Part shown: positions 4,153 to 23,582 of the stretch, one piece after another | Layout: each line of letters begins with the position of its first letter | Numbering within the stretch: position 1 is the stretch's first letter | Source: a virus | Strand: one strand, 5' to 3' | Virus record (IMG/VR): IMGVR_UViG_3300025130_000006 | Span: 1-31,105 of that record | DNA: 31,105 nt | Translations under genes and position numbers: made by a program | Notes under the pieces: model-generated | Databases searched by the model: none | The model's input: only the letters and a program-made list of their open reading frames with translations | What the model was told of the DNA's origin: nothing

Positions 4153-4592
4153 GCGCGCTCCCCGAACGGTCCAACCAGGCCAACGCCGCCGTCTCCCTGC
4201 GCGTCGCCGGGGCCACCTACGGCGAGATAGCCGAGACGCTCGGCTACAGCAGCGCCGCCAACGCCCGCAACGCCGTCGAGATATCCCTCGCCGCACGCGC
4301 CGGGGAGAACGACCGCGAGTCGCTCCGGCGCACCGAAGGGGCGCGCCTGGACAGGCTGCTGCGCGGCGTGTGGCGGAAGGCCACCGACGACACCCACCCC
4401 GAGCACCTCGCCGCCGTCTCCCGCGCACTGGCCATCATCGACCGCCACATCAGGCTGTTCGGGGCCGACGCCCCGCAGGAGATGATCCACTACACGCCCA
4501 CCCAGGAGCAGATGGACGCCTGGGTGGCGCAGATGTCCCGCCAGTACATCCCGGACGTGCCCGAGGCCGACGTCATCGAGATCGAGCCGTGA
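4149..4592 (+). CDS. Probable terminase small subunit
   Basis: This gene codes for 147 aa. The ATG overlaps the previous stop (ATGA). Residues about 11-50 contain a HTH-like segment, VAGATYGEIAETLGYSS followed by ANARNAVEISLAAR, which is the pattern of small terminases and other phage DNA-recognition proteins. The C-terminal part includes a short acidic tail. The small terminase recognises the packaging site and loads the large subunit. The call rests on the HTH, the size and the position two genes before the large terminase. No signature proves it, so another DNA-binding function is possible. Confidence 0.6.
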   Translation: MSALPERSNQANAAVSLRVAGATYGEIAETLGYSSAANARNAVEISLAARAGENDRESLRRTEGARLDRLLRGVWRKATDDTHPEHLAAVSRALAIIDRHIRLFGADAPQEMIHYTPTQEQMDAWVAQMSRQYIPDVPEADVIEIEP

Positions 4593-6754: not shown

Positions 6755-8473
6755 ATGGCGCGACCGCGCAAGCCCCACCCCGAACCGACGGCCACCAGCC
6801 TCGTCGCATCCGCCGTCCGGCTCCCCACCGTCCGCGAAGGAGCCGTCGCGCGCAGCGAGGCGTGGCAGACCGAGGCGTGGCGGCTGTACGACACCGTTGG
6901 TGAACTGAGGTTCGTCGCCAACTGGATCGCCAACCTGATGTCCCGGGCACGCCTCGTCGCCGTCGAGCACCGGCCCGGCACCGACCACGTGCTGCTGTCC
7001 GGCCCCGCCGCCGACGCGCTCGCCGAGTACTTCGGCGGCGAGGCCGGGCAGACCGAGATGCTGCGCCTCACCGGCCTGCACCTGGCGGTCGCAGGAGAGT
7101 GCTACCACGTGTACCGGGCAGCCGACAGCACCTGGAGCGTGCTCGCAGCCGACCGGGTGCGCCAGACCGGCAAGGGCGACCGGGCCGTGCTCCGCGCCGA
7201 CTTCGGCGACGGCGCCGGGCACGTCACCCTCACCCGTGGCAGCGACCTCGTGCTGCGCGTCTGGCAGCCGCACCCGGTGGACCCGCAGCGCGCCGACAGC
7301 CCCGTCCGCGCCAACATGGCGAGCCTGCACGAGATCGAACGTGCCAGCCAGACCGTCGCCGCCACCCTGAAGTCCCGCCTCGCCGGTGCCGGGGTGCTGA
7401 TGCTGCCGTCCGACATGACCTTCCCGGCACCCGACAACGCCCCCGAAGGGGCCTCCCAGGCCGACCTGTTCATGCTCACCCTCGGCGAGGCCATGCTCAC
7501 CCCCATCGCCGACCCCGACGACGCCTCGGCCGTCGTACCCATCGTCGTCACCGCCCCAGCGGAGGCCATCCAGGCCGCCAAGCACATCGAGTTCGCCCGC
7601 GACCTGGCCGAAGAGACGCGCATGACCCGCGACAACGCCGTCAAGCGGTTCGCGCTCGGCATGGACGTGCCACCCGAGGTGCTGCTCGGCCTGTCCGACG
7701 TCAACCACTGGAACGCCTGGCTCGCCGACGAGGCCAGCACCAAGGTCCACATCGAGCCCCGCCTCGCCATCGTCGCCAACGCCGTCTACACCGGCTACGT
7801 CGCCCCGGCCATCGCCGCCGACCTGCCCGTCGCCTCCTACGGTGTCGCCGCCGACAGCGCCGCCATCCGCATCCGGCCCAACCGCTCCCGCGAGGCGCTC
7901 GAACTGTGGGACCGGGGCGAACTGACCGGCGCGGCGCTGCGCCGCGAGACGGGGTTCGCCGAGGACGACAAGCCCAGCCGCAACGACCTCGCCGAGTGGC
8001 TGCTCCGCAAGATCGCACTCGGCTCCACCAGCCCGGAGCAGACCCAGGCAGCCGTGCAGGCCCTCGGCGTGGACCTGCCCACGCCGAGCATCGGGGCCGC
8101 CAAAGGACGGCCCGACGACCTGGACAACCGGCGCAGCATCGAACGCGACGCCCGCGACATCGGACCGCAACCGGCGCTGCTCGCCGCCGCCGAGGTGCTG
8201 GTCTACCGGGCGCTGGAGCGGGCCGGGAACCGGCTGCGGTCACGGCACTCCTACCGTGGCCCCACCCCGGCCGCAGACCTGTACCTGGAGTTCGACGGCG
8301 ACCCCGACGTGCTCCTCGCCGACGCCTTCACCTGCGTGGACCGGGTGACCGACGCCGCACCCGCCGACTTCGCGCTGCGCCTGCACGGCTACTGCTCGGG
8401 GCTCATCGCCACCAAGACCCCGCACAGCCGGTACGCGCTGGCCCGCCACCTCGACCTGGCCGCAGCATCGTGA
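6755..8473 (+). CDS. Portal protein
   Basis: This gene codes for 572 aa from ATG 6755. The portal is the dodecameric ring at the capsid vertex through which DNA enters and leaves. Support comes from its position after TerL and before MuF, its size, and sequence features of the SPP1/HK97-type portal family. These are an early RFVANWIANLMSRARLV segment, an acidic central region, the MTRDNAVKRFALGMDVPPEVLLG segment with LSDVNHWNAW, and a helical C-terminal stem with acidic D/E-rich ends. The stop overlaps the GTG of the next gene (GTGA at 8470-8473), giving coupled synthesis of portal and MuF proteins, which interact in the procapsid. Confidence 0.88.
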   Translation: MARPRKPHPEPTATSLVASAVRLPTVREGAVARSEAWQTEAWRLYDTVGELRFVANWIANLMSRARLVAVEHRPGTDHVLLSGPAADALAEYFGGEAGQTEMLRLTGLHLAVAGECYHVYRAADSTWSVLAADRVRQTGKGDRAVLRADFGDGAGHVTLTRGSDLVLRVWQPHPVDPQRADSPVRANMASLHEIERASQTVAATLKSRLAGAGVLMLPSDMTFPAPDNAPEGASQADLFMLTLGEAMLTPIADPDDASAVVPIVVTAPAEAIQAAKHIEFARDLAEETRMTRDNAVKRFALGMDVPPEVLLGLSDVNHWNAWLADEASTKVHIEPRLAIVANAVYTGYVAPAIAADLPVASYGVAADSAAIRIRPNRSREALELWDRGELTGAALRRETGFAEDDKPSRNDLAEWLLRKIALGSTSPEQTQAAVQALGVDLPTPSIGAAKGRPDDLDNRRSIERDARDIGPQPALLAAAEVLVYRALERAGNRLRSRHSYRGPTPAADLYLEFDGDPDVLLADAFTCVDRVTDAAPADFALRLHGYCSGLIATKTPHSRYALARHLDLAAAS

Positions 8474-11400
8474 CCTTCGACGTCGAGACGTTCGCCGCGC
8501 AACGCGACCGCGCCCTGCTCGACCTGGCCGCGACGCTGCGGCCCCGCCTTGCCGCAGCCCTGTCCGAACCGGCGCTCGCCCAGGCGGTCCTCGACGTGCT
8601 CGCCGACCCGTTCCGCCGACTGTACGAGGGCGAAGGCGGGAACGACTGGCGGGACGCCTTCGCGTCGCTGCGCGGCGACCTCGACGGCGCGCTCGCCCGC
8701 ACCACCCCACAGACCAACCCGGACCTGCTCGCCACCTGGCTCGCCACCGCCGTCCTCAACCGGGCCACCGTCCTCGCCGCCCCGCTGCTGTCGGTCAAGC
8801 AGTGGCTCTGTGTCTCTGGCGACACGCTGGTTCAGGCGCCGGGCGTGACGCATGTGTCGCGCCGCTGGCACGAGGGCTGGATGATTCGGCTACGCCTCCC
8901 GCACGCCACGCTCACCCTGACACCGGAGCACCATGTGCTGACGGGGCGCGGCTGGGTTGCTGCTCAGGCACTCGATGAGCAGGACAAGGTGTTCCACGTC
9001 GCCGGAGTTGATGCCGTCGGGACACCAGGCGTAGAGCACTCGCAGCCCAGCATCAAGGAGTGCTTCGACGCGCTCGCTGGTCGCTCTCTTGTCGAGCAAC
9101 GTCGGACTATGAAGGTGCCGATGGACCTCGACGGCCACGTCGCCAGCCAGGAGGTCGATGTTGTAGCGGCCGACAGCCGCCTGCGGCACGACCTGCAGGC
9201 CGCGTGCTCGCAGGCGCTCTCCGAGTTCGCGTTCCAGACGACCGATGTGCAACTGGCGCTCCTGGCGTGCGCGAGCCCGAGAGGCCAGTTGCTCGGCCGT
9301 CCACCGTCGCCCGACGTTGACCGAGCGCAGGTGGGTGGCGACACGCTCACGCTCGCCCGGCCGCTGACTGCGGACGAGCCCGGCTTCGCTGTGGGTTCGC
9401 ACATCGACACCGGCGAGTGTCAACTGGCGTCGGATGGTGCGCGAGGACACGTCGTAGGCCCCGGCGATGGTAGCCAGGGACTCCCCGCTGGAGTATCGCC
9501 GTGCGATGTCCTCTCGATCGAGGTCATCCCGTGGAGCGACCATGTGTACGACCTCTCCGTCACGTCATCGTGGTTTGTTGCTAACGGGACGATTGTACAC
9601 AACTCCATGCAGGATGAAGCGGTGCGTGACACGCACCGCCCGCTCCACGGGGTGCGGCGGCTGCGGGGTGAGACGTTCCCCGTCGGCGGGTTCGCGTTGC
9701 AGTACCCCGGCCAGCCCGTCGGCCCGCCCGAGGTATGGATCAACTGCGTGGCCCCGTCAACGAAGGTCGGCTGGGCTGGGCAGGGCGTACTGGCGATCAC
9801 GCGCCATGTGACGCATGGCCGCAGCGTGCATCTGCGCCTCATCGACGGACGCGACCTCACCGTGACCCCGAACCACCCGGTACTGACCCCCGAGGGGTAC
9901 GTCAAGGCTGACCTGCTGCGCCCAGGCGATGAGGTCATGGCAGCCCCGCTCTCCGTAGGGCCACAGGTAGCCGACGTGGAACCCAGCGCCGAGCAACTGT
10001 TCCGTGCGATGAGCAAGGTTGGGGTGGTAGAGCGGGTGGGTGTTGCTGCTGTGGACTTCCACGGCGACGTTCCCGACGAGGAAGTCCAGGTTGTATGGGC
10101 CGACGGCGACCTGGCGGCGGAACTGCGGGTACAAGGCGGCGACCAGGCTCTCGTCAGGCTGGGCGTACGAGAGGTCACGTTCAGCGACGCGAGCCTTCTC
10201 GATCTGGCCCGGGGTGAAGGTGTCGCGCTCCCGGCTTCCTCCGGTGCGGCGCGCGGCATGGGCGGCGGCGGCGTCGGCACGGCGCTCCTCGGGCGTCATG
10301 CGGGCCATGCGCAGCCGGTTGGCCTCGCTGGCACTGCGGGCTTCCGGCCCGAGCCGACGCAGGTAGATGTCGATGGTGCGTCGCTGGACGCCGAGTTCCC
10401 GCGCCATCTGGAGGACGCTCTGGCCCTCGGCATGGCGGCGACGCAGGTCGTCGGTGTCGAGCGGGGTGAGGGGCGGCATGAGTGGTACAACCTCCACACA
10501 GATAGGAACTGGTACAGTGCCAACGGCGTTGTAACACACAACTGCCGCTGCGTCCTCGCCGTCCTGCCGTTCACCAACATCGCCGACGCCTTCTCCCTGG
10601 AGTTCGCCGAGCACGACCTGCTGTTCCTGGAGAACCGCCGCACCCCCAAGGTCGTGCCGAGGGGCCAGCGGTACACGCCCAAGCCGAGCGAGGGGCGCAT
10701 CACCAAACGCCGCCACGCCACCAAGGACGAGGAGCGCGTCATCGCCAGGGACGACTGGCTGCGCGTCAACCAGGACGGGAAGAAGCCGGGACAGCCCGGC
10801 TACATGGACAGGCGCAGTAAGGTCAGACCGCAACTGAACGCCGTCGAAAGGGCAGAGCAGATGGCCGACACCGACGTCATGGATGACATCGACACCGACG
10901 AGGAGTTCGACGTCACCGACTTCGCACCCGACGAGCCGACCCCCTGGTACGGGGTGCTCGCACCCGAGGGGGTGCTGTCCGGCGACAAGCGTTCGTTCGA
11001 GCCGGGCGCGCTGTCCAGCCGCGACCTGCCGCTGCCGCTGCTGTGGCAGCCCAGCAACGAGTCCGGCCACGACGGGGCCGTCGTCGTCGGCCGCATCGAC
11101 CGGATGGACCGCGACCCCGACGGGCTGGTGTGGGGCGAGGGCGTGTTCGCGCAGACCGAGGAGGCCGACAAGGTGGTGGGCCTCATCGCCGAAGGGCACC
11201 TGCGCGGCATCAGCGTGGACGTGGACGACGCCGAGATGGCGGTGACCGAGGACGAGTCGGTGCGGTTCTCCAAGGGCCGGATCAGCGCCGCGACCATCGT
11301 GCCCATCCCGGCGTTCGCCGAGGCGTTCATCGCGCTGGGCACCCGCCAGCAGGCCGACGACCTCGTTGCCGCTGCGGTGGCGATGCGGGACTACACGCAG

Positions 11401-12669
11401 GCCGAGCGCGACAGGATGACGGAGACGGGCGAGGCCCTTGACGACGGGTCCTACCCGATCAAGGACGCCGACGACCTCCGCAACGCCATCCAGGCGGTAG
11501 GCCGGGCGAAGGACTACGAGAAGGCGAAGCGGCACATCATGCGCCGCGCCCGCGCGCTGGACCTGGAGTGGATGCTGCCCGAGGAGTGGGCCGGTGACAC
11601 CGAGGAGTTCAAGCGCGGCGCAGGGTGGGTGACGCACCCGGAGGAGACGCGGCGGCTGCACGCCTACTGGACACGCGGCAAGGGCGCGGCCAAGATCAGG
11701 TGGGGGATGCCGGGGGACTTCACCCGCTGCACCCGCCAGTTGGCGAAGTACGTCAACCCGTACTTCCTGTACCGGACGTGCGCCCAGTGGCACCACGACG
11801 CCCTCGGCTACTGGCCGGGCGAGTTGGGCAGGCCCGGCAACCCGCCGAACACGCCGGAGAACCGGCGGCGGGCAGCCCGCCACGCCACCGCGCTCCAGTC
11901 GTGCGAGGACTGCGTGCCGCAGGGCGTGTCGCTGGTGTCGGCGGCTGCGCCGGTCGCCCTTCCCGCCGACGCCTTCGCCGACCCGCACCTGCCCGGCCCG
12001 ACCGGGCTCACGGTGGAGCCCGACGGCCGCATCCGTGGCCACCTGGCGCTGTGGGACACCTGCCACATCGGCATCGACCGCATGTGCGTCACCCCGCCCC
12101 ACTCGGCGGCGCAGTACGCCTACTTCTCCACCGGGCAGGTCCTCACCGACGACGGCTACGTGCCCGTCGGCCAGATCACCCTCGACACCGGGCACGCCGA
12201 CCTGTCGGCCGACCCGTTCGCGGCCAAGGCGCACTACGACAACACCGGCACCGTGGTCGCCGACGTCGCGGTCGGTGAGGACGAGCACGGCATCTGGTTC
12301 GCCGGGATGCTGCGCCCCGACGTGGACGACGCGGCCGTCCACCGGCTGCTCGCGTCCGGCCTGTCCGGCGACTGGCGGGGCATCCGGGGCAACCTGGAAC
12401 TGGTCGCCGCGCTGGCCGTCAACGTGCCCGGCTTCCCGGTGCCGAGGTTGGCCGCGTCCGGTGGCAGGCAGACGGCGCTCATCACGCCGCCCGCGCTGGC
12501 GGCGTCCGCGCAGGAGTCGGAGGTGGTGGTGGACGTGCACGCGCTGGCCGTCGCCGTCCTCGACGAGATGGCTGCGCGTGCACGCCGCGCCCAGCGTGTC
12601 GATGCGCTGGCGTCCTTCGCCGACGAGGACCGGCGGGCACGCGCCCGTGCGCTGATGGAGGTGCGCTGA
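8470..12669 (+). CDS. MuF-capsid maturation protease polyprotein carrying two inteins
   Basis: The precursor is 1399 aa from GTG 8470. Removing inteins 114-378 and 426-691 leaves an 868-aa protein. Spliced residues about 100-170 give the SPP1 gp7/Mu gpF motif (KQWL-SMQDEAVRDTHR, HGVRRLRGETF, then WINCRC). Next is an HK97/S78-type prohead protease domain with LPLPLLWQ, SGHDG (His at 11068) and LRGISVD (Ser at 11212), matching the His and Ser of that family. A helical KDADDLRNAIQAVGRAKDY region follows, then a second protease-like block (LALWDTCH, TGHADL, LSGDWRGIRG, VNVPGFPV) typical of actinophage maturation proteases. It therefore couples portal-associated head assembly with scaffold cleavage. 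Active-site assignments are inferred. Confidence 0.88.
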   Translation: MTFDVETFAAQRDRALLDLAATLRPRLAAALSEPALAQAVLDVLADPFRRLYEGEGGNDWRDAFASLRGDLDGALARTTPQTNPDLLATWLATAVLNRATVLAAPLLSVKQWLCVSGDTLVQAPGVTHVSRRWHEGWMIRLRLPHATLTLTPEHHVLTGRGWVAAQALDEQDKVFHVAGVDAVGTPGVEHSQPSIKECFDALAGRSLVEQRRTMKVPMDLDGHVASQEVDVVAADSRLRHDLQAACSQALSEFAFQTTDVQLALLACASPRGQLLGRPPSPDVDRAQVGGDTLTLARPLTADEPGFAVGSHIDTGECQLASDGARGHVVGPGDGSQGLPAGVSPCDVLSIEVIPWSDHVYDLSVTSSWFVANGTIVHNSMQDEAVRDTHRPLHGVRRLRGETFPVGGFALQYPGQPVGPPEVWINCVAPSTKVGWAGQGVLAITRHVTHGRSVHLRLIDGRDLTVTPNHPVLTPEGYVKADLLRPGDEVMAAPLSVGPQVADVEPSAEQLFRAMSKVGVVERVGVAAVDFHGDVPDEEVQVVWADGDLAAELRVQGGDQALVRLGVREVTFSDASLLDLARGEGVALPASSGAARGMGGGGVGTALLGRHAGHAQPVGLAGTAGFRPEPTQVDVDGASLDAEFPRHLEDALALGMAATQVVGVERGEGRHEWYNLHTDRNWYSANGVVTHNCRCVLAVLPFTNIADAFSLEFAEHDLLFLENRRTPKVVPRGQRYTPKPSEGRITKRRHATKDEERVIARDDWLRVNQDGKKPGQPGYMDRRSKVRPQLNAVERAEQMADTDVMDDIDTDEEFDVTDFAPDEPTPWYGVLAPEGVLSGDKRSFEPGALSSRDLPLPLLWQPSNESGHDGAVVVGRIDRMDRDPDGLVWGEGVFAQTEEADKVVGLIAEGHLRGISVDVDDAEMAVTEDESVRFSKGRISAATIVPIPAFAEAFIALGTRQQADDLVAAAVAMRDYTQAERDRMTETGEALDDGSYPIKDADDLRNAIQAVGRAKDYEKAKRHIMRRARALDLEWMLPEEWAGDTEEFKRGAGWVTHPEETRRLHAYWTRGKGAAKIRWGMPGDFTRCTRQLAKYVNPYFLYRTCAQWHHDALGYWPGELGRPGNPPNTPENRRRAARHATALQSCEDCVPQGVSLVSAAAPVALPADAFADPHLPGPTGLTVEPDGRIRGHLALWDTCHIGIDRMCVTPPHSAAQYAYFSTGQVLTDDGYVPVGQITLDTGHADLSADPFAAKAHYDNTGTVVADVAVGEDEHGIWFAGMLRPDVDDAAVHRLLASGLSGDWRGIRGNLELVAALAVNVPGFPVPRLAASGGRQTALITPPALAASAQESEVVVDVHALAVAVLDEMAARARRAQRVDALASFADEDRRARARALMEVR
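8890..9543 (-). CDS. Antisense homing endonuclease candidate nested in intein 1
   Basis: This gene codes for 217 aa on the minus strand, wholly inside intein 1. ATG at 9543 is preceded by GGAGAGG (9558-9552) with an 8-nt spacer, and TACAAT lies further upstream (9597-9592). Residues about 8-45 form a HTH: DIARRYSSGESLATIAGAY then DVSSRTIRRQL. Residues about 115-172 look like a Vsr/DUF559-type PD-(D/E)XK nuclease: YNIDLLAGDVAVEVHRH (D130, E139, H141) followed by ERVEALLDAGLRVLYAW. The product would cut intein-free MuF alleles and drive homing. The related antisense gene at 9757-10479 has the same domain order. Openness alone is weak evidence in this register. The SD and domains carry the call. 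Confidence 0.8.
   Translation of the reverse strand: MVAPRDDLDREDIARRYSSGESLATIAGAYDVSSRTIRRQLTLAGVDVRTHSEAGLVRSQRPGERERVATHLRSVNVGRRWTAEQLASRARARQERQLHIGRLERELGERLRARGLQVVPQAAVGRYNIDLLAGDVAVEVHRHLHSPTLLDKRATSERVEALLDAGLRVLYAWCPDGINSGDVEHLVLLIECLSSNPAAPRQHMVLRCQGERGVREA
9552..9597 (-). promoter_or_regulatory. Antisense expression signals for nested nuclease 1
   Basis: On the minus strand, TACAAT (9597-9592) is a good -10 hexamer, formed by the sense codons ATT GTA near the intein C-terminus. No clear -35 is seen 17 bp upstream. A start near 9585 would give a leader of about 40 nt that contains GGAGAGG (9558-9552), 8 nt before the ATG at 9543. The SD is convincing. The promoter is a proposal. 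Confidence 0.5.
9757..10479 (-). CDS. Antisense homing endonuclease candidate nested in intein 2
   Basis: This gene codes for 240 aa on the minus strand inside intein 2. ATG at 10479 is preceded by GGAGG (10495-10491) with an 11-nt spacer. The open frame continues far upstream into extein DNA (to 12816), but that part is a high-GC shadow. Residues about 8-43 form a HTH: DDLRRRHAEGQSVLQMARELG then VQRRTIDIYL. Residues about 115-175 hold the nuclease-like core: YPQFRRQVAVGPYNLDFLVG, NVAVEVHSS (D132, E141), HRTEQLLGAGFHVGYLW. Alignment with the other nested gene is good over both domains (YNIDLLAGDVAVEVH against YNLDFLVGNVAVEVH). The last 45 or so residues lie over blocks A/B of the intein and may be unselected. 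It is the likely homing enzyme of intein 2. Confidence 0.8.
   Translation of the reverse strand: MPPLTPLDTDDLRRRHAEGQSVLQMARELGVQRRTIDIYLRRLGPEARSASEANRLRMARMTPEERRADAAAAHAARRTGGSRERDTFTPGQIEKARVAERDLSYAQPDESLVAALYPQFRRQVAVGPYNLDFLVGNVAVEVHSSNTHPLYHPNLAHRTEQLLGAGFHVGYLWPYGERGCHDLIAWAQQVSLDVPLGGQYRVVRGHGEVASVDEAQMHAAAMRHMARDRQYALPSPADLR
10491..10533 (-). promoter_or_regulatory. Antisense expression signals for nested nuclease 2
   Basis: On the minus strand TACAAC (10533-10528) lies at the same place relative to the intein end as TACAAT in intein 1, followed by GGAGG (10495-10491) and the ATG at 10479. It depends on the sense codons GTT GTA, which are unusual for this genome. No clear -35 is seen. 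Confidence 0.4.
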
Positions 12670-12951: not shown

Positions 12952-14598
12952 ATGTTCACCCTTCCCGACACCGGGCTCGACGGCCTGGACATCGACGCGC
13001 TGGCTGCGCTGGAGTCCGAGGGCCTGGCCGCGTTCCGCGACCTCGACATCAACGAGGACAGCGACGCCGACACCATCGCCGAGGGCGAGCGCATCGTCGC
13101 CGCCGTGCGCGAGGTGCGCGAGCGCAAGGACGCCCTGGCAGCGCAGGAGGCCGAGAGGCTGGAGCGCGTCGCGGCGATCAAGGACTTCGGCGTCCCGCCG
13201 GAGGCAGAGACGGTCGAGGCGGCGACCGAGGAGCCGACCACCGCAGCCGCCGAGCAGGTCGAGGAGGCCGCTGTGGAGCATGTCACCACCGACGCCGGGG
13301 TTCCGGCGAAGGCACCCGCCGTCGTTCGCGCCGCCGCGCAGGCCCCGGCGGTCGTCGTCCCCGCCGAGCGAAAGGTGGCCGTCCTCACCGCCGCCGCCGA
13401 CGTGCCCGGCTTCGCCACCGGCAGGGAGTTGGACGACTTCTCGCTGGTCGCGTCGGCCGTCGTCAACCGGATGCGGTCGTTCCCAACCGGGACCCCGGCG
13501 TCGGCGATGTTCAACCGCTACGGGACCGCCGTGGTCACCAAGCAGGGCTACGACGGGCTCAGCCAGGACGACTTCCGCGACGACCAGGCCCTCCTGGACG
13601 AGGCCGTGCGCCAGTCCCGGCTGCCCGGAGGGTCGCTCATCGCCGCCGGTGGCTGGTGCGCCCCGTCGGAGACGCTCTACGACTGGTGCTCCGACGAGGA
13701 CGCCAACGACCTCGTGTCGCTGCCTGAGGTGCAGGTGACCCGTGGCGGCGTCCGGTTCACCAAGGGGCCGGACTTCGGCTCGCTGTTCAGCAGCGTGGGC
13801 TTCGCCCTCACCGAGACGCAGGCCATCGCCGGGTCGCCCGACAAGACCTGCTACACCGTCGAGTGCCCGACGTTCACCGAGGTTCGCTGCGACGCCTTCG
13901 GCATCTGCATCAAGGCGCCGATCCTCACCAACGCCGGGTACCCGGAACTGGTCGCCGACGTGATCCGCAAGGCCCTCGTCGCGCACGAGTTGAAGATCAA
14001 CGCGGGCCTGCTCGGCAAGATCAAGACCGCCCTCGGTGCCGCGCTCACCCCGGCCGACCAGAAGTCCACCGTGTCGAGCCTGGAGGCCCTCCAGTGGGTG
14101 GCCGAGTCGATCCGGCAGAAGTACGGCTTCTCCGACCAGAAGGTCATCGAGGTCGTCATGCCGAAGTGGGCGCGCCTGTCGATCCGCGAGGACCTGGCCC
14201 GTCGCACCGGCGTGGACTACGTGAACGTGACCGACGCGATGATCGCCGAGTGGTTCACCGTGCGGAACCTGGCCCCGCAGTTCGTGCGCGGCCTGGACGA
14301 CCTGGACGTGTCCTCGGCCTTCCAGGTGAAGCCGAAGGCGTCGTTCCCGGCGCTCGTGTACCCGGCCGGGTCGTTCATCAAGGGCACCGGCGCGGTCATC
14401 ACGCTCGACTCGGTGTACGACAGCACCGACCTGGCGAGGAACCTGTACACCGCGCTGTTCGCCGAGGAGTGCGTGCTGCTCGCCAACCGCTGCTACGGCG
14501 GCGCGCTGGTCACCATCCCGGTGTGCGACTCCGGTCGCTCCGGGGCCGCTGACCTGATCGCGTGCTTCGGAACGGCGGAGCCGGTCCCTTCTCCGTGA
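12952..14598 (+). CDS. Major capsid protein with N-terminal scaffold-like domain
   Basis: This gene codes for 548 aa. The ATG follows a perfect AGGAGG (12939-12944). Residues about 1-135 are helical, acidic and Ala/Glu-rich (AIAEGERIVAAVREVRERKDALAAQEAERLERV is typical when read in parts), like the delta domain of HK97-type capsids that scaffolds assembly and is then cut by the prohead protease encoded upstream. Residues about 150-540 are the capsid fold: GFATGRELDDFSLVASAVVNRM, GGWCAPSETLYDWC, KYGFSDQKVIEVVMPKWA, and a C-terminal PAGSFIKGTGAVITLDSVYDS with ECVLLANRC. It is long because of the delta region. Many Cys (CYTVECPTFTEVRCDAFGICIK) could cross-link or bind metal. It has its own promoter before it and a strong hairpin after it. 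Confidence 0.9.
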   Translation: MFTLPDTGLDGLDIDALAALESEGLAAFRDLDINEDSDADTIAEGERIVAAVREVRERKDALAAQEAERLERVAAIKDFGVPPEAETVEAATEEPTTAAAEQVEEAAVEHVTTDAGVPAKAPAVVRAAAQAPAVVVPAERKVAVLTAAADVPGFATGRELDDFSLVASAVVNRMRSFPTGTPASAMFNRYGTAVVTKQGYDGLSQDDFRDDQALLDEAVRQSRLPGGSLIAAGGWCAPSETLYDWCSDEDANDLVSLPEVQVTRGGVRFTKGPDFGSLFSSVGFALTETQAIAGSPDKTCYTVECPTFTEVRCDAFGICIKAPILTNAGYPELVADVIRKALVAHELKINAGLLGKIKTALGAALTPADQKSTVSSLEALQWVAESIRQKYGFSDQKVIEVVMPKWARLSIREDLARRTGVDYVNVTDAMIAEWFTVRNLAPQFVRGLDDLDVSSAFQVKPKASFPALVYPAGSFIKGTGAVITLDSVYDSTDLARNLYTALFAEECVLLANRCYGGALVTIPVCDSGRSGAADLIACFGTAEPVPSP

Positions 14599-14778: not shown

Positions 14779-15816
14779 ATGGCGGTGTTCGCACCCGAGC
14801 GTGTCGATGCCCCTGTCGTGGAGCGGCGCAAGGGCGGCCTCCTGTCGGTGGCCGACGTCCGCGACGACCCGTCGGGGAAGTGGATGTACGGGCTGGACTG
14901 GCAGCCCGAGCACTGCGGCACCGCCCACCTGACCAGCATCGACTGCGTGGACGGCCCCGCCGGGGCGAAGGTGTTCGACGGCGCGCCGGTGGTGCTGTCG
15001 AAGGCGTTCGCCGCGTACAAGGGTGTCGCCTGCGACTCGTTCGACATGGACCGCTACCGGCGCATGGCGCGGGTCGGCCTGGAGTTCGGCGAGGCCGAGG
15101 CGGTGGAGCGGTACGTCGCGCTGAACATCCTCGACGGCGGCACCGACCTGACCCCGACGACCGGGACGGCGGTGCCGCTGGAGGTCGGGCTGGGCATCAT
15201 CGAGGAGTGGACGGCCGAGAACTACGGCGGGGTGCCCATCGTGCACGCCGACCGGCTGGTCACGACCCTGCTCGACGGCGCGGACCTGCTGATCCGCGAC
15301 CCGGTGAACCTGCGTACCGTGCAGGGCAGCCTGGTCGCCAACGGCGCGTACCGGGTCGCCAACAAGGCAGGCGAGCGGTGGCTGTGGGCCACCGGCCAGG
15401 TGCTCCTCGTCCGTGGCTCCATCGGCGAGCACGACGCCCTCGACCGGGCGAAGAACCGGCACTACGCGCTGGCCGAACGTCCGTGGGCCATCGGGGTCGA
15501 GTGCTTCCTGGTGAAGGTGCTCGTCACCACCACCGGGGCTCCTGCCGTCACCGCCTCTCCGGTGGACAAGTCGGCCGCGCACCCCGGTGACGTGTTCACC
15601 GACCCGTCGGTCACCAACAAGGCCGCGCTCGCCACGCAGCGGTACGTGGCAGCGCCGAACCTGCCGTGGCAGCCCGGCTGGTACATCACCGTGGGGACGA
15701 ACAAGTACACCTGGGACGGGACCGCCTGGCAGGACTACGTTGCCCCCACGCAGTCCGGCAGCACCGGCGGGCCGTTCGGGTCCGCGTTCGCGCTGCCGTT
15801 CCGGGGGGTGCTGTGA
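14779..15816 (+). CDS. Virion structural protein, second head protein
   Basis: This gene codes for 345 aa from ATG 14779 after GAGAGGCGG. Two parts can be seen. Residues about 1-255 are globular, with GLDWQPEHCGTAHLTSIDC, VALNILDGGTDL and a late GGVPIVHADRLVTTLLDGADL, then TVQGSLVANGAYRV. This layout reminds me of a capsid-fold protein. Residues about 255-345 read as a flexible linker followed by a beta-rich end with WQPGWYITVGTNKYTWDGTAW, as in head fibres or carbohydrate-contacting tips. I do not recognise the family. Decoration protein, minor capsid or capsid paralogue are all possible. Its position after the capsid terminator suggests fewer copies than the major capsid protein. Confidence 0.6.
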   Translation: MAVFAPERVDAPVVERRKGGLLSVADVRDDPSGKWMYGLDWQPEHCGTAHLTSIDCVDGPAGAKVFDGAPVVLSKAFAAYKGVACDSFDMDRYRRMARVGLEFGEAEAVERYVALNILDGGTDLTPTTGTAVPLEVGLGIIEEWTAENYGGVPIVHADRLVTTLLDGADLLIRDPVNLRTVQGSLVANGAYRVANKAGERWLWATGQVLLVRGSIGEHDALDRAKNRHYALAERPWAIGVECFLVKVLVTTTGAPAVTASPVDKSAAHPGDVFTDPSVTNKAALATQRYVAAPNLPWQPGWYITVGTNKYTWDGTAWQDYVAPTQSGSTGGPFGSAFALPFRGVL

Positions 15817-16031
15817 GCCAGGTCATCTTCCCGCTCGACCAGCCGACGGCGCAGGCGCTGCTGGAGGCTGCCGACGTGGCCGGTCACCCGGCCTGGGTCG
15901 TCCAGGCGACGGCGGACGGGTTCGTGGTGCCCGACGACGTTGCTGACATCTTCCACCACGGGGGCGTCAGGCCCGACCAGAAGAAGGCTGCTCCCCGCAG
16001 CCGCAGCCGCAAGCCCGTCGAGAAGGAGTAG
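15813..16031 (+). CDS. Small head-associated protein
   Basis: This gene codes for 72 aa from GTG 15813 (GTGA overlap with the gene before). It contains SQVIFPLDQPTAQALLEAAD (strand plus helix), WVVQATADGFVVPDDVADI, and a basic, disordered tail DQKKAAPRSRSRKPVEKE. Small proteins of this type lie between capsid and tail genes in many actinophages. The function is unknown. The basic tail may touch DNA or RNA. Confidence 0.6.
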   Translation: MSQVIFPLDQPTAQALLEAADVAGHPAWVVQATADGFVVPDDVADIFHHGGVRPDQKKAAPRSRSRKPVEKE

Positions 16032-16034
16032 GTC

Positions 16035-16976
16035 ATGGCAAGCAGGACGTTCCCGCTGGTGCGGGGCCGCAAGATGCGGGTCACTCGGCTCGACGGCTGT
16101 GGCCGCCCGCAGTACGGCGACTGCAATCAGGTCGTCACGGAGGGGTTCGTCAGCGTGGGGCTCACCGCGAACGTGACCGAGGGTGAGTCCATCACCGTCA
16201 CGAACGCCAACGGCAAGACCTGCGTGTCGGACACGCCGTGCGCCGAGTTCAACGGGTACTCGGCGGAACTGACGTTCTGCAACGTGGACCCGGAACTGTT
16301 CGCCATGCTGTCCGGCCAGGAGCAGGTCATCGACGCGAACGGCGACGTGGTGGGCTTCCGCATGTCGCAGGACAAGTCGGGCTGCGACTACGGCTTCGCG
16401 CTGGAGGTGTGGGCCGGTGTGCCCGGCCAGGTCTGCTCGAACGACCCGAACGCGCAGGGGGCCTACGGCTACATCCTGCTGCCGTTCATGCAGGGCGGCG
16501 TGCTCGGAGACTTCACCATCGAGAACGCGGCGATCAACTTCTCCATCACCGGGGCGGGGTCGAAGGCCGGTTCGACGTGGGGCGTCGGCCCGTACGACGT
16601 GACGATGCAGGCCAACAACCAGCCCGGCCCGCTGCTGAAGCCGATTGCCCGAGGCGACCACCTGCACGTCCAGTACACCGAGGTCGCCCCGCCCGACGAC
16701 ACCGACGGCTGCTTCCCGGTGCTGAACCCGGAGCACACGGCCATCACGGACTTCACCGCGACCCCGGCTGGCCTGACGGTGACGGTGGCCCCAACGCCGT
16801 CCACGCCGTCGCCGACGACGGAGCCGCTGGTCGTCCTGTGGGGTGACGGGTCGCACACCTTCGTGAACACCGCCGGGCCGATCACGCACGCCTACTCGGC
16901 GGCGGGGACCTACAAGGTCACCGTGCAGCGTGGTCGCTCGTCGGTCACGAAGGATGTCACGGTCGCAACCCCTTAG
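16035..16976 (+). CDS. Major tail (tube) protein with C-terminal PKD/Ig-like domain
   Basis: This gene codes for 313 aa from ATG 16035 after GAAGGAGTAGGTC. Residues about 1-215 are the tube domain: beta-rich, with TRLDGCGRPQYGDCNQVV, repeated strands and GAYGYILLPFMQGGVLGDFTIEN typical of siphovirus tube proteins. Residues about 230-313 form an Ig/PKD-like domain: FTATPAGLTVTV, then LWGDGSHTFVN, HAYSAAGTYKVTVQRG and a final strand. Such domains decorate tail surfaces and bind host polysaccharide weakly. The gene ends GCA ACC CCT TAG, and the -1 frame stays open for 95 codons beyond (see the next feature), so an extended minor form is possible. Confidence 0.8.
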   Translation: MASRTFPLVRGRKMRVTRLDGCGRPQYGDCNQVVTEGFVSVGLTANVTEGESITVTNANGKTCVSDTPCAEFNGYSAELTFCNVDPELFAMLSGQEQVIDANGDVVGFRMSQDKSGCDYGFALEVWAGVPGQVCSNDPNAQGAYGYILLPFMQGGVLGDFTIENAAINFSITGAGSKAGSTWGVGPYDVTMQANNQPGPLLKPIARGDHLHVQYTEVAPPDDTDGCFPVLNPEHTAITDFTATPAGLTVTVAPTPSTPSPTTEPLVVLWGDGSHTFVNTAGPITHAYSAAGTYKVTVQRGRSSVTKDVTVATP

Positions 16977-17260
16977 CAGGGTCGGGGCAGCAGCCCACAA
17001 CCTCGACCCAGCAGCCGGGCAGCAGTGACGGGCCGTTCTCCGGCGACTTCGCCGACACGTTCAGGGCCGTTCAGGCATCGGCGGGTGCCACACCGGCCCC
17101 GCCTGTCGGCGACGTACCCGACGGCACGGTGGACGAGGTGTCGGCATGGGTCGGGCAGGATGCGGACCGGGCTGCCGCCGCGCTGGCGGTGGAGGAGTCG
17201 GGCAAGAAGCGGGTGACGTTGCTGCGCCGCCTGTCTGCAATCGTCGGCGACGGCGAGTGA
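16973..17260 (+). CDS. Possible -1 frameshift extension of tail tube protein
   Basis: After the tail-protein stop (TAG 16974-16976) the -1 frame is open from 16847 to the TGA at 17258-17260, with no ATG, GTG or TTG before GTG 17129. It encodes a linker (LAGSGQQPTTSTQQPGSSDG) followed by FADTFRAVQ and a helical end, TVDEVSAWVGQDADRAAAAL then GKKRVTLLRRLSAIVG, which reads like a real phage protein. A slip of tRNA-Pro from CCT (16971-16973) to CCC (16970-16972) just before the stop would add 95 aa, giving 408 aa. Alternatives are a separate 43-aa gene from GTG 17129, an unusual start, or a sequencing error. Confidence 0.5.
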   Translation, partial: LAGSGQQPTTSTQQPGSSDGPFSGDFADTFRAVQASAGATPAPPVGDVPDGTVDEVSAWVGQDADRAAAALAVEESGKKRVTLLRRLSAIVGDGE

Positions 17261-17270
17261 GGAGGCTGGT

Positions 17271-17585
17271 ATGGCTTGGGTGACAGTGACGGTGCAGGTC
17301 GCGGACAAGAACCTCCACGGCGAGCCGCCGATCGATCCCGTAGAGCGAATCTACTTCGACCCGTCGGGAGGGTCGGCGTGGGACGCCTCGAACTATGGCG
17401 GCAGCGCGCACATCCTTCCTGTCGGCGTGTGGGATCACCAGCAGGCGATAGCCGAGTTGAGGTCCGGGACGATCACGTACGCCAACGGGGTGTTCACCCT
17501 GCAGGATGTAGATGTTGATGACGCCGAACTGGCGGCAGCGCGCGCCGCCGGATGCGTCAACGTGGCTATTCATCCTAGCGGGTGA
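17271..17585 (+). CDS. Protein of unknown function in head-tail region
   Basis: This gene codes for 104 aa from ATG 17271 after GAGGAGG (about 17260-17266). It has a beta strand opening AWVTVTVQVADKNLHGEPP, a middle IYFDPSGGSAWDASNYGG and a C-terminal DVDVDDAELAAARAAGCVNVAI. It is acidic and soluble with no recognised family. It overlaps the next gene by 4 bp. Third positions are slightly richer in A/T (GAT, GTA, GTT) than in its neighbours, so it may be a recent insertion. Confidence 0.6.
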   Translation: MAWVTVTVQVADKNLHGEPPIDPVERIYFDPSGGSAWDASNYGGSAHILPVGVWDHQQAIAELRSGTITYANGVFTLQDVDVDDAELAAARAAGCVNVAIHPSG

Positions 17586-17920
17586 CGGGTGCTCCGGTGA
17601 ACGACATCGAGGACGTCCGCGCCGTGCTCGGCGAGGCGGTGTTCGCGCTGTTCCTCGTCGCCGTCATCGCGGGCATCCTCACCTTCGTGCTGCTGCGCGC
17701 CGCGTCGAAGCGCGCCGACGCGATGGTGACGATCAGCCTGTCGGTGCTGACACTGGTGTCCATCGTCGGGTTCATCGCCACCGGCAGCGAGACGCTGGGC
17801 ACGCTTGCGGGGGCCGGGATCGGAGCCTTGGCCGGGGCGTTGACGAACCTGTTCGGCCAAGGCCCGTCCGATGAGCCTCCTGGCGATACGCTGGGGGGGC
17901 CGTCGAGCAAGGAGGGCTGA
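17582..17920 (+). CDS. Membrane protein, two to three spans
   Basis: This gene codes for 112 aa from GTG 17582 (overlap GTGA). The spans are about residues 15-37 (LGEAVFALFLVAVIAGILTF), 46-64 (MVTISLSVLTLVSIVGFIA) and a Gly/Ala-rich 68-90 (GTLAGAGIGALAGALTNLF). The tail is hydrophilic (GPSDEPPGDTLGG). Hydrophobic proteins within tail modules can be holins or DNA-injection proteins. The small size and the charged tail fit a holin, but the endolysin is 11 kb away, so this stays open. Confidence 0.6.
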   Translation: MTGAPVNDIEDVRAVLGEAVFALFLVAVIAGILTFVLLRAASKRADAMVTISLSVLTLVSIVGFIATGSETLGTLAGAGIGALAGALTNLFGQGPSDEPPGDTLGGPSSKEG

Positions 17921-18765
17921 TGGGCTGCGTCCCGTACGACCCGGACATGGCGTGCTGCGACGACTGGACGTCTCACGACGCGGCCCTGCGGCAGCGTGCG
18001 ACGGCGCTGGCGTGGTCGGCGCTGCGGCACCTGACCGCCGGGCGGGTCGGGAACTGCCCGGTCCTGATCCGGCCCTGCCGCAGCGGGTGTGTCGGCGCGT
18101 CCGACAGCGTGCTCAACCCGGACTACCGGGACGGCAAGTGGTACAACACCGTCTGCGGCACCTGCGGCGGCACCGGCTGCTCCTGCTCGTCGGTGTGCGA
18201 GGTCGTCCTTCCCGGCGAGGTCGCCGCCGTGGGTGCGGTGTTCCTCGGCGGGGCGCGGCTGGACGAGACGGCGTGGCGGGTGGACAACGGCAACCGCCTG
18301 GTCCGCACCGACGGCGACTGCTGGCCGACCTGCCAGGACATGAGCCAGGCGTGGGACGGCCCGGACGCCTTCTCGGTGGTGTTCCTGCCGGGCGTGTGGC
18401 CCGGCCCGGACGGGCTGTGGGCGGCCGGGGTGCTCGCCTGCGAGTTCGCCAAGGCGTGCACGGGCGCCAAGTGCCGCCTGCCGTCGTCGGTGCGATCGCT
18501 GACCCGCCAGGGCTTGTCGATGTCGTTCACCGAGGGCATGTTCGCCGGGGGGCAGACCGGCATCCGCGAGGTGGACGCCTACGTCGCGTCACTGAACCCG
18601 TTCCACGTGAAGGTGCCGTCGCGGGTGTGGTCGCCCGACCTGGCCGCGTCGAACGGCCGGTACCAGACGCAGGGCTCGTCGTGGCCGCCGTTCATGCTGC
18701 CCGCCGGGACAGGCCCGTTCTCGTGGCACTTCGCCACCCCGTTCGACCGAGTGTCGCAGCCGTGA
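17920..18765 (+). CDS. Head-to-tail connector/adaptor-like protein
   Basis: This gene codes for 281 aa. ATG 17920 shares its A with the previous stop, and GGAGGG lies just upstream. It is Cys-rich at the start (MACCDDWTSH; CPVLIRPCRSGC; VCGTCGGTGCSCSSVC), with paired CxxC motifs that may hold Zn. Then comes VCEVVLPGEVAAVGAVFLGG, LFWP-type strands, VLACEFAKACTGAKCRLPSSVRSLTRQG, and a C-terminal FHVKVPSRVWSPDL. This arrangement (a few helices, Cys pairs, then a conserved RLPSSV segment with SMSF) matches actinophage proteins annotated as head-to-tail adaptors. The role is assigned by synteny. Confidence 0.65.
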   Translation: MGCVPYDPDMACCDDWTSHDAALRQRATALAWSALRHLTAGRVGNCPVLIRPCRSGCVGASDSVLNPDYRDGKWYNTVCGTCGGTGCSCSSVCEVVLPGEVAAVGAVFLGGARLDETAWRVDNGNRLVRTDGDCWPTCQDMSQAWDGPDAFSVVFLPGVWPGPDGLWAAGVLACEFAKACTGAKCRLPSSVRSLTRQGLSMSFTEGMFAGGQTGIREVDAYVASLNPFHVKVPSRVWSPDLAASNGRYQTQGSSWPPFMLPAGTGPFSWHFATPFDRVSQP

Positions 18766-20408: not shown

Positions 20409-23400
20409 ATGGCTAGGCGGATCGGAAGCGTCTACGTCACGGTCCTCGCCAACACGCGGGGCGTGTCGAAGCAGATCAGGGACGAACTGCGTAAGTCAGG
20501 TCCCGTGGTCGGCAAGGACTGGGCCGACGGGTTCAACAGGTCGCTTCGGGACGCCGAACTGTCCGAGGCGTTCTCGGACGCCGCCGACAAGATCGTCGGC
20601 GAGTGGCGGGCCAAGACGAAGGCGATGGGCAAGTCGGTCCGCTACGGGATCGCCGACGCACGTCTCGCCGAGCAGATGGAAGGTGAACTCGAAGCGTTCC
20701 TGAAGTCGTTCAACCGAGCCCTGCCCAAGCGGCTGCAAGTCACGATGGAGGCTGCCGCCAACGGGATCGCACGATCCCTGGAGGGGGCGCTGAAGCGGGT
20801 CGAGGCCGAGGAGAGACGTGTCGTCCAGGACACGGAGCGTGCCATCCAGGCGTTGGACAAGCAGCGGGCAGCGGCGTACCTGAAGCAGTTCCAGGACGCC
20901 GAGCGCGAGCAGGCCCGGCTGGCGGCCGAGGCGGAGAAGGAGAGGAAGCGACGGCTCGACTTCGCCGACCGCATCGAGCGGACCCTGGTCCGGCAGAACA
21001 CCCTGGGCTCGGTCAACCTGTCGCTGGACCAGGCGCAGGTCGCGCTGGAGAAGTTGATGCTCGACCTTCAGGCCGGGCGGGTCGTCAACATCCGTGATGC
21101 CCAGGTCGAGTACACCCGCCTGACGACGATCATCGCCGAGCAGAACCGAGTCCTGCGTCAGCAGTCCGAGGCTGCCAACCGGACCGAGAGGTCCATGTTC
21201 AGGGCTGCCACGTCGTTCAGGGACGCTCTGCGCCGGGCCGGGACCGGCGGCTTCTTCGACAACGCGACCAACGTGCTCGCCGGGCTGACGAGCATCTCAC
21301 TGGTGGCGGCCAGGGTCGCGCGCCGCGCCGTGGAGGGGTTCATCGACCTCGGCGACGCCATCAGCCGGGTCGGCGACCGCCTGTCCAGCACAGGCACGAA
21401 TGCGTTCACCCGCAGCATCGGGGCGCTCGGCAAGACCGTCGGAGCGGCCATCTCGGCACTCGGCCCGTGGGGGCAGGCCATCGCCGCCGCCGCCGCTGCT
21501 GTCGTCGGCCTGGTCGCCGGGTTCCAAGCCCTGGGCGCAGTTGCCGCCGCCATCTCCGCCACCGCCGGGGTTCTGCTCTCCCTCTCCTCCGCAGCGACCT
21601 ACGCCGCCGGGTCGCTGGCCGCGCTGCTGCCGTTGGCCGCTGGCCTGGGCGCTGCCGCAGCGACCATCTTCGTCGGCTTCGAGAACGTCCCCGGAGCCAT
21701 CAAGGCCTTCTCTGCTGCACTGAAGGAGTCGGACCCGGAGAAGAAGGCCGAGGCGCTGGAGAGGTATGCCGACGCGCTGGGCCTGCTCACCCCGAACGCA
21801 CGCACCGCCGTGCAAGCACTGGAACCGCTCATCAAACGGTTCGGGGACCTGCGTTCCGCCGTGCAGGAGAAGTTGTTCGCCGGTCTGGCGGAGGAGATCG
21901 GCGGCCTCGGTGTCCTGTTCGACAAGGTGGAGGCCGGTCTGCTCGGAGTCGCAGACACGCTGAACGAGGCCTTCAAGGCCCTGTCGGGCATCTTCAGGGA
22001 GCCGAAGTTCCTCGCCGACCTGCGGAAGAACTTCGAGGGCCTGCGCCCGATCATCCTCAACATGACGACCGCGACCGGGAACTTCCTGTCCGGCGTCAAC
22101 AGCCTCATCACGTCGCTGCTACCAGCCGGGGAAACGCTGTCCGGCTGGTTCGCCGACATCGCCGAGACGTTCAAGGGGTGGACGCAATCCGCACGCGGCA
22201 AGAACACCATCGCCGACTTCATGGAGAGGGCGTTCGAGTCGGCCGGGAAGATCAAGGACATCTTGCTCCAGGTCGGGTCGGCCATCGGCACGTTGTTCTC
22301 CGGCTCCTACGGCTCGGGCCAGTCGTTCCTCGACGCCCTGCTGGTCAAGGCGCAGGAGTTCGCCGACTGGGCGCGGCAGGTCACCGCCAGCGGCCAACTG
22401 GAACGCTGGCTGGAGGACGTGAGGGAGATCGCTGGCGATGTCGCCGAGGTCGTCGGTGACATCGCCAAGGCGTTCGACCAACTCGACAACCCCGGCACCC
22501 GCTCCTTCCTCGGCGACGTCATCACCATCTTCGGCGACATCATCGAGGCCATCGGGGCCATCGCTGCGGCCATCGAGAACCCGACCTGGACGAGCCTCGG
22601 CGAGGCGCTGGCGCGACCGTTCATCACGTTCGCGGACATCGTGGGCTCCATCTTGGAGAACGTGCCGGGGATGCAGGGCCTGGGGAGCGCGCTGAAGAAC
22701 GCCGCCGACCAGGCGGAGCGTCTGCTGGAGCCGAAGGGTGCCGACTCTGCCTTCGACTGGGCTGCCATCGGTCTAGACGCCCTGATCGCCCTGAAGGACC
22801 AGGGCGTCCTCACCAACCAGGAACTCGACTTCATCATCAACGAGAGGGACGCGCCGAACTTCCCGCTGGTGCTGAAGAACAAGTTGGAGTCGCTAAAGAC
22901 CCAGGGGCTCATCACCGACGAGCAGTTGGCTGCCATCGTCGGCGACCGCACCCTGTCGTCCTGGCCGGAGGCTCTCGCCGGGGCGCTCCTCAACGACACG
23001 ACGACGGCGCAGGGCACGTCCGCCGCGCTCGCCACCGTGGTCGGCAACCGCCCGCTGCCGCCGTGGCTGCAGAACATGCTCGTGCAACTGGGGTCGGTCG
23101 GCCAGCAGGCCATCATCACCCAGGGCCGGATCGCGGCCATCCCCAACGACAAGCAGGTCCGCATCGGCATCACCGAGACGGGGTACAACGTCGTCTACGG
23201 CAAGGTCCGGTCGATCCTCGACCAGAACGGCAAGGTCGTCAACATCATCATCAAGGGGACGTCGGCCGGGACAGGTCCGGGCGGTCCCGCCAACCCGAAC
23301 TCCGCGTCGGGCGGGCTGTTCACGAACCCGTCGGCCAGGATCATCGGGGAGAACGGCCCCGAGGCGCTCATCCCGCTGTCCCGCCCGCTCGGCCAGGTGG

Positions 23401-23582
23401 ACCGTTCGGTGCGCGGGCTCGCCGCCCTGATCCGCCAGGGCGGCAGGGGTGTCCAGGCGTCGCAGGGCAAGACGGCCGGTAAGACGGTGAACGTCACCAT
23501 GAACGTCTACCCTGCACAGGCAGACCCGGAGGCCGTCGCGGCGGCGGTGATGAGCCGGGCCGTGACACTGGCGAGGACGTGA
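20409..23582 (+). CDS. Tape measure protein
   Basis: This gene codes for 1057 aa. The ATG at 20409 has only a weak SD (GGCAGG), and a 9-codon open frame, 20387-20416, bridges it to the chaperone stop. The N-terminal third (about 1-270) is helical coiled coil with repeated R/E/A/Q (DAEREQARLAAEAEKERKRRLD). The middle (about 345-420) has long Ala/Gly-rich hydrophobic segments (AAAAAAVVGLVAGFQALGAV) that may insert into the host membrane. The C-terminus (about 950-1057) has GPGGPANPNSASGGLF, EALIPLSRPLGQVDRSV and a final TVNVTMNVYPAQADPEAV. It sets tail length and escorts DNA. By the usual rule of about 0.15 nm per residue the tail would be near 160 nm. Confidence 0.9.
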   Translation: MARRIGSVYVTVLANTRGVSKQIRDELRKSGPVVGKDWADGFNRSLRDAELSEAFSDAADKIVGEWRAKTKAMGKSVRYGIADARLAEQMEGELEAFLKSFNRALPKRLQVTMEAAANGIARSLEGALKRVEAEERRVVQDTERAIQALDKQRAAAYLKQFQDAEREQARLAAEAEKERKRRLDFADRIERTLVRQNTLGSVNLSLDQAQVALEKLMLDLQAGRVVNIRDAQVEYTRLTTIIAEQNRVLRQQSEAANRTERSMFRAATSFRDALRRAGTGGFFDNATNVLAGLTSISLVAARVARRAVEGFIDLGDAISRVGDRLSSTGTNAFTRSIGALGKTVGAAISALGPWGQAIAAAAAAVVGLVAGFQALGAVAAAISATAGVLLSLSSAATYAAGSLAALLPLAAGLGAAAATIFVGFENVPGAIKAFSAALKESDPEKKAEALERYADALGLLTPNARTAVQALEPLIKRFGDLRSAVQEKLFAGLAEEIGGLGVLFDKVEAGLLGVADTLNEAFKALSGIFREPKFLADLRKNFEGLRPIILNMTTATGNFLSGVNSLITSLLPAGETLSGWFADIAETFKGWTQSARGKNTIADFMERAFESAGKIKDILLQVGSAIGTLFSGSYGSGQSFLDALLVKAQEFADWARQVTASGQLERWLEDVREIAGDVAEVVGDIAKAFDQLDNPGTRSFLGDVITIFGDIIEAIGAIAAAIENPTWTSLGEALARPFITFADIVGSILENVPGMQGLGSALKNAADQAERLLEPKGADSAFDWAAIGLDALIALKDQGVLTNQELDFIINERDAPNFPLVLKNKLESLKTQGLITDEQLAAIVGDRTLSSWPEALAGALLNDTTTAQGTSAALATVVGNRPLPPWLQNMLVQLGSVGQQAIITQGRIAAIPNDKQVRIGITETGYNVVYGKVRSILDQNGKVVNIIIKGTSAGTGPGGPANPNSASGGLFTNPSARIIGENGPEALIPLSRPLGQVDRSVRGLAALIRQGGRGVQASQGKTAGKTVNVTMNVYPAQADPEAVAAAVMSRAVTLART

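Follow-up and report, generated by a model that had tools for sequence, protein, structure and literature searches.

The major tail (tail tube) protein gene of the actinobacteriophage described here runs on beyond its stop codon in the -1 frame, and this extension is genuine and coding. It is most likely expressed by frameshifting, and the best reading of the site is probably a stop-coupled -1 slip of the proline tRNA from CCU to CCC. The stretch of DNA analysed, hereafter the window, is a 31,105-base IMG/VR record represented by a single metagenomic contig, and the record is probably a fragment.

The tail gene and its neighbours

PHROG matches in the window include terminase, portal, major head protein (12952-14598), major tail protein, head-tail adaptor (17920-18765) and tape measure (20409-23582). 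The major tail protein gene lies at positions 16035 to 16976 of the plus strand and codes for a protein of 313 aa, which matches the PHROG_792 major tail proteins over residues 2-305 and along the full-length profile with an E-value of 5.1e-93, and which possesses a C-terminal PKD-like domain, the match for which is weak (E 0.0023) and under the Pfam curated cut-off. The final codons are GCA ACC CCT TAG. Since the alignment of protein ends places the end of the 0-frame product within two residues of the ends of the proteins of Wilde, SilentRX and others, the tail stop in the window is considered native.

The gene directly upstream of the tail gene is found at 15813 to 16031 (plus strand). The next gene downstream (17271 to 17585, plus strand) codes for 104 aa with no PHROG or Pfam match, and the first base of its Shine-Dalgarno sequence AGGAGG (17260-17265) is at the same time the final base of the stop codon of the extension. 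In the region 6755-12669, the portal ORF 6755-8473 (PHROG_776) overlaps ORF 7099-12669, the second half of which has matches to PHROG_859 and to a profile for head maturation proteases.

The proposed shift site and the -1 frame

The proposed shift site CCCCTTAG occupies positions 16969 to 16976 of the plus strand and is found once in the whole window. It includes the last codon CCT (16971-16973) and the stop TAG (16974-16976), while in the -1 frame the codons read here are CCC (16970-16972) and TTA (16973-16975). The initial annotation had placed the last codon within CCCCT, and the sequence ACC CCT TAG confirms this, a proline codon standing directly before the major tail stop. The open stretch of the -1 frame reaches from 16847 to 17257 and, counted from TTA 16973, it provides 95 codons followed by TGA at 17258-17260 (extension 16973 to 17260, plus strand), which gives 408 residues in all, exactly as had been claimed.

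None of the codons ATG, GTG, TTG, CTG, ATT, ATC and ATA occurs in this frame between GTG 16838, which precedes the frame's own stop at 16844, and GTG 17129. The earlier statement that the frame has no start for 280 bases is thus right as to the missing starts, but that distance was counted from the upstream stop; measured from the tail stop, the stretch free of starts covers about 150 bases, GTG 17129 being the first start.

Related tails were collected in eight scans of viral contigs, one scan of genome contigs and 13 phage records, giving 163 distinct tail genes with stops after the removal of tails cut off before the stop and of those identical in the last 150 bases plus the stop. The collection comprised 143 distinct tails from 248 matches and reached 163 in all; pattern scans 7 and 8 returned 113 and 81 stretches, nearly all of them unrelated, and only five new distinct tails were gained from the later loci together. 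In 20 of the 163 tails the -1 frame stays open over 95 codons or more, in eight it runs for 52 codons or more ahead of any start, and six tails combine the two features. Because openness is this common among related tails, openness and missing starts alone are not beyond chance.

The last 75 bases of the tail gene in the window contain no canonical heptamer of the X_XXY_YYZ kind. A +1 slip was rejected as the +1 frame is closed at 17026; the '+1 shifty stop' pattern, defined by CCC before the stop and an open +1 frame, is not what the window has, with CCT before its stop and the +1 stop at 17026. The Shine-Dalgarno-like stretch GAAGGA at 16949-16954 was read as conserved TKD codons and not counted.

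The extension consists of a linker of 51 codons (16976-17128), rich in Gln, Ser, Thr and Pro, and a module part of 43 codons. The codon model was built without two doubtful ORFs (2876-4135 and 7099-12669), and under it the linker score is weaker than with them. The linker scores higher than every same-strand wrong frame and 99.9% of base shuffles but lower than 99.9% of true segments of equal length, and in its choice among synonymous codons it exceeds shuffles only narrowly (p about 0.05), so the linker is only weakly coding. The module part has a codon score like that of the phage's own genes and higher than all same-strand wrong-frame segments of the training genes.

The conserved C-terminal module

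The last 40 or so residues of the extension form a conserved module, TVDEVSAWVGQDADRAAAALAVEESGKKRVTLLRRL, predicted to be helical and located at 17120 to 17239 of the plus strand. An HMM built from 14 copies with the window left out found it with an E-value of 2.9e-7 among 476 six-frame ORFs of the window; this was the sole significant match, the next one having an E-value of 0.71 and the best reversed-sequence control 2.1. The protein-like content ascribed to the -1 frame by the initial annotation is borne out by this match and by the codon score of the module part.

Iterating the HMM resulted in 17 distinct module copies in the fetched loci, all 17 ending no more than ten residues from the C-terminus of their ORF, and the copy in the window agrees with the family in both sequence and C-terminal position. 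Judging by these matches, the module is real and, in the copies seen, always C-terminal. Fourteen of the 17 copies belong to the gene immediately upstream of the tail gene, among them those of Wilde gp22, SilentRX gp23 and Jayden gp30, where the module forms the C-terminus of the product; the corresponding gene in the window lacks it. Two of the remaining copies are elsewhere (L007 and L347) and one is that of the window. In L007 the module belongs to the gene after the major head protein gene, starting with a GTG that overlaps the stop of the latter. Genes that carry the module and have proper starts do exist in relatives, but they lie before the tail gene or elsewhere; the arrangement that the initial annotation would have taken as refuting a frameshift, a separate gene after the tail gene, is never found among these copies.

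The predicted structure of the module consists of three helices, with low confidence (pLDDT 62). Searches with the short module gave no match by tblastn in phages, none in Pfam and none in four phage genomes, and the best E-value against the PDB was 1.7. The whole extension matched only two ssRNA phage records in the database search, at an E-value of 0.7 that corresponds to chance, and no close relative of the extension was found in the collections. In the Arthrobacter phage Wilde locus (L010, 2471-4557), two major tail proteins, gp23 and gp25, are annotated in tandem with a 40-residue gene between them.

Tails ending in CCT-TAG

Only three of the 163 distinct tails end in CCT-TAG, namely those of the window, L145 and L194, which have C-CCT-TAG in common; none of the 15 loci from the scan of genome contigs has this end. 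All three have a protein-like -1 continuation, compared with 13 of the other 160 tails, for which hand arithmetic gives a chance near 8e-4 with the continuations judged unblinded. In L145, a 71-codon -1 continuation (3855-4082) behind the same CCCCTTAG is a second copy of the tail protein's own C-terminal domain, sharing 48.6% identity with the in-frame domain and 66% with the domain of L037. In L194, the continuation LEGFGFGPFGLVPFGS (3919-3975) is found behind A_GGC_CCT_TAG, with GGCCCTTAG as the site, and is of the GFGPFGxVPFG kind. Its 16 residues in the -1 frame are homologous to the -1 tail LTGFGFGPFGMVPFGQ of L174 (3044-3101), also of the GFGPFGxVPFG kind, which follows the heptamer G_GGC_CCC. 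As L194 has no heptamer whereas L174 has one, the homology of the two suggests a shared step of tRNA-Pro re-pairing, and the step that matters appears to be the re-pairing of the proline tRNA on CCC beside the stop. The minor longer tail protein proposed in the initial annotation, made by a -1 slip of the proline tRNA, is the best-supported explanation, with three of three CCT-TAG tails continuing and 13 further tails continuing behind a canonical heptamer, although the window itself has to do without such a heptamer.

A candidate 3' hairpin of -17.4 kcal/mol is located directly after the stop in the window (16976 to 17012, plus strand). Canonical -1 sites have a stem-loop or pseudoknot 5-9 bases downstream; here the main stem lies five bases after the CCT but at the stop when the CCT is in the P site. 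Folds of this stability or better occur in about 5% of 37-nt windows, or in 14.5% when the best of 10 starts is taken. Hairpins begin at the stop or within three bases of it in all three CCT-TAG tails. Folding 45 bases gives values of -18.9, -22.6 and -16.9 kcal/mol; this stability is unexceptional (ranks of 0.095, 0.061 and 0.209 among 148 tails), and the hairpin was rejected as strong evidence for the shift. A joint fold of only three sequences carries no weight.

Alternative explanations

The tail gene and its extension might be one continuous gene in which a base is missing from the CCCC run, the stop being an artefact. An error at the C run would indeed join the frames, and the window is a single metagenomic contig with no second assembly found, nor does any other contig in the collections carry the junction. 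This explanation is nevertheless unlikely, as the 0-frame stop coincides to within two residues with the stops of relatives, which an error need not produce, and as the joined frame would use TTA, a codon with no occurrence among the 3381 clean codons of the window (and none among 6303 by a looser count). Moreover, L145 has the same site, and there two assemblies agree: the contig L159 of a different metagenome aligns to L145 without a gap along 4011 bases, 12 of which are mismatched. The -1 shift itself also requires this absent codon to be read, as UUA.

It is distinctly unlikely that the module is a separate small protein translated from GTG 17129 (43 aa) or from 17138, perhaps by re-initiation after the tail stop. 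GTG 17129 stands at the edge of the module as the earliest start of the frame, and the codon score is much better past it; against this, the aligned module starts before the GTG, no Shine-Dalgarno-like stretch was seen before 17129, the distance from the tail stop to the GTG is about 150 bases with an other-frame GTG at 17025 in between, and each of the other 16 module copies forms the end of a longer protein. It is very improbable that the extension is a relic of a gene or of recombination that is neither translated nor maintained: this would suit the weakly coding linker and the absence of the module from its usual seat in the gene before the tail gene, but the frame is open to the module's end and closes exactly at the ribosome site of the next gene, the codon use of the module is that of translated genes, and L145, L194 and further tails repeat the arrangement with different content.

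Proposed mechanism and comparison with known systems

According to the preferred reading, a stop-coupled -1 frameshift of tRNA-Pro, the tail protein made by most ribosomes would end at TAG 16974, while a fraction of ribosomes would pause while the last CCU occupies the P site and the stop codon waits in the A site. The tRNA-Pro could then release and re-pair one base back on CCC, perhaps assisted by the hairpin after the stop, and reading would resume at UUA, adding 95 residues, the linker first and then the helical module. The resulting 408-aa tail-tube subunits would be mixed into the tube, and the module might be displayed outside it, like the C-terminal decorations of other tail tubes.

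Major tail proteins are known to be extended by a +1 shift at CCC-stop where the host is a low-GC Gram-positive bacterium, and by a -1 shift in a few other phages. The window would represent this already known kind of tail-protein extension, with the -1 slip at CCU-UAG as a different site. In the tail gene tsh of Listeria phages PSA, A118 and A500, a +1 shift occurs at CCC_UGA (PMC5009743). The comparison with PSA made in the initial annotation is right in kind, the extension of the major tail protein, known in the one case and proposed in the other, starting from the proline codon that immediately precedes the stop, but the direction and the codon differ, with +1 at CCC in the Listeria phages and -1 at CCT-TAG in the window. 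The tail-tube protein of SPP1 is similarly extended by a slip of tRNA-Pro at CCCUAA, which adds 87 residues to gp17.1 and yields gp17.1*, the two being present in the tail at 3:1 (PMC6316719, PMC8718954). The SPP1 slip is +1, from CCC to CCU, with an FN3 cargo, whereas the slip proposed here would be its mirror image, from CCU to CCC, with a helical module. The major tail gene of the lactococcal 936-group phage PhiC0139 has also been described as ending with a stop-coupled slip: MTP-TpeX, made at the CCC.UAG 'shifty stop', adds a structure to the surface (PMC4759559), this time in the +1 direction and with a carbohydrate-binding cargo. Since the slip proposed for the window is -1 while PSA, SPP1 and PhiC0139 slip +1, it falls outside the '+1 shifty stop' class.

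Lactobacillus phage A2 is said to use a canonical slippery site with a downstream structure, unlike the window. The -1 frameshift extensions of the major virion proteins of A2 (PMC5009743, PMC4759559) resemble the shift proposed for the window in direction. As it has no heptamer, the window site is not a canonical -1 heptamer site. The motifs listed in PRFect include non-heptamer backward ones, among them 'twofour' (PMC10885494), and AACCCC in the window could be such a motif, judged by the motif name. The tail tubes of lambda, T5 and YSD1 carry C-terminal Ig-type domains in frame and in one form only (PMC8718954), resembling the long form proposed for the window in the decoration of the tube surface and differing in that no frameshift is involved.

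Searches of the open-licence literature brought up no description of a frameshifted tail protein for these phages; in its accessible text, a survey of Microbacterium phages gives frameshifts for the tail assembly chaperones of cluster EA and not for the tail gene of cluster EG (PMC7302621). A -1 slip at CCU-UAG that needs no heptamer would, if it is real, be a type of site overlooked by searches for XXXYYYZ.

The -1 continuations in related tails

An accepted -1 continuation was found in 16 of the 163 distinct tails, several of these 16 being close kin. Thirteen have a canonical heptamer, which is CCCTTTC in ten, GGGAAAA in two and GGGCCCC in one. Among 143 tails, heptamers are enriched at the tail ends, where they occupy 17 of 1287 positions versus 60 of 36,698 in the gene bodies, and none of these tails has a +1 continuation that both runs for 25 codons ahead of a start and has a positive codon score.

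The ten tails with C_CCT_TTC just before the stop continue with a conserved GHGPxGHG tail of 19-22 residues in the -1 frame, such as VGPGFGYGHGPYGHGPYGH or LSPGSGFGFGPFGHGPFGHSPV. They belong to Phinky (L008, 3436-3505), Jehoshaphat, OneinaGillian-like phages and metagenomic contigs, the other loci being L064, L071, L072, L093, L094, L096, L209, L255 and L403. In Phinky, Hyperion, Squash and OneinaGillian, the -1 shift would yield a minor form about 2 kDa larger that includes the peptide GHGPYGHGPYGH or GHGPLGHGPLGN. A GHGPFGHG tail is also found in L150 (3855-3933), behind G_GGA_AAA and on a tail protein of another clade. In the 11 sequences of the GHGPFGHG type, L150 included, the pairwise differences over 33 bases are distributed 90/66/379 by -1 codon position, and the -1 frame of this type is therefore translated and under purifying selection. 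The annotated records with CCCTTTC end the tail gene at the 0-frame stop, and since not one of the 13 phage records with annotation indicates that the tail gene is joined, current annotations miss the extension.

The second tail with G_GGA_AAA, L051, has a 215-residue -1 continuation (3888-4550) with no start for 185 bases and a positive codon score; an Ig-like fold was considered for it and dropped, the best Pfam E-value being 0.33. Seven tails end in C-CCC-stop, with a continuation in L174 only, so a slippery proline beside the stop is not enough. In some relatives the same add-on is found in frame, as in the double domains of L086 and L039, and both PKD and TIG domains occur in frame in related tails, the latter in L021 and L035.

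In this family of actinobacteriophage tails, the 16 continuations among 163 tails use slip sites of four kinds and carry add-ons of at least four types unrelated to one another, a wider pattern that is more interesting than the window alone. According to an old idea, recombination lands decorations in or out of frame, and frameshifting rescues those that are out of frame. With in-frame and -1 add-ons present in one family, this becomes directly testable in the cultured Microbacterium phages of cluster EG. It may tentatively be suggested that actinobacteriophage tail-tube genes have repeatedly gained swappable -1 add-ons via CCCTTTC, GGGAAAA, GGGCCCC and a -1 'shifty stop', CCC_UUA_G. At the last of these, reading would always resume with UUA, the codon that these GC-rich genomes use least, and the long form would therefore depend on a UUA-reading tRNA. 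In Streptomyces, the UUA-reading tRNA is the developmental regulator bldA.

L023 and L205 (3934-3985 in both) are alike after the tail stop, where a conserved hairpin, GGCCCCTACC...GGTAGGGGCC, is located a few bases downstream; the differences between the two are distributed 9/4/5 by codon position, and the region was rejected as coding and read as a terminator-like hairpin. In unrelated viral contigs, proteins with repeats of the FGVFGFGPFGVFGF type were observed at the ends of ORFs of about 170-280 residues (L374, L375, L371, L391 and L428).
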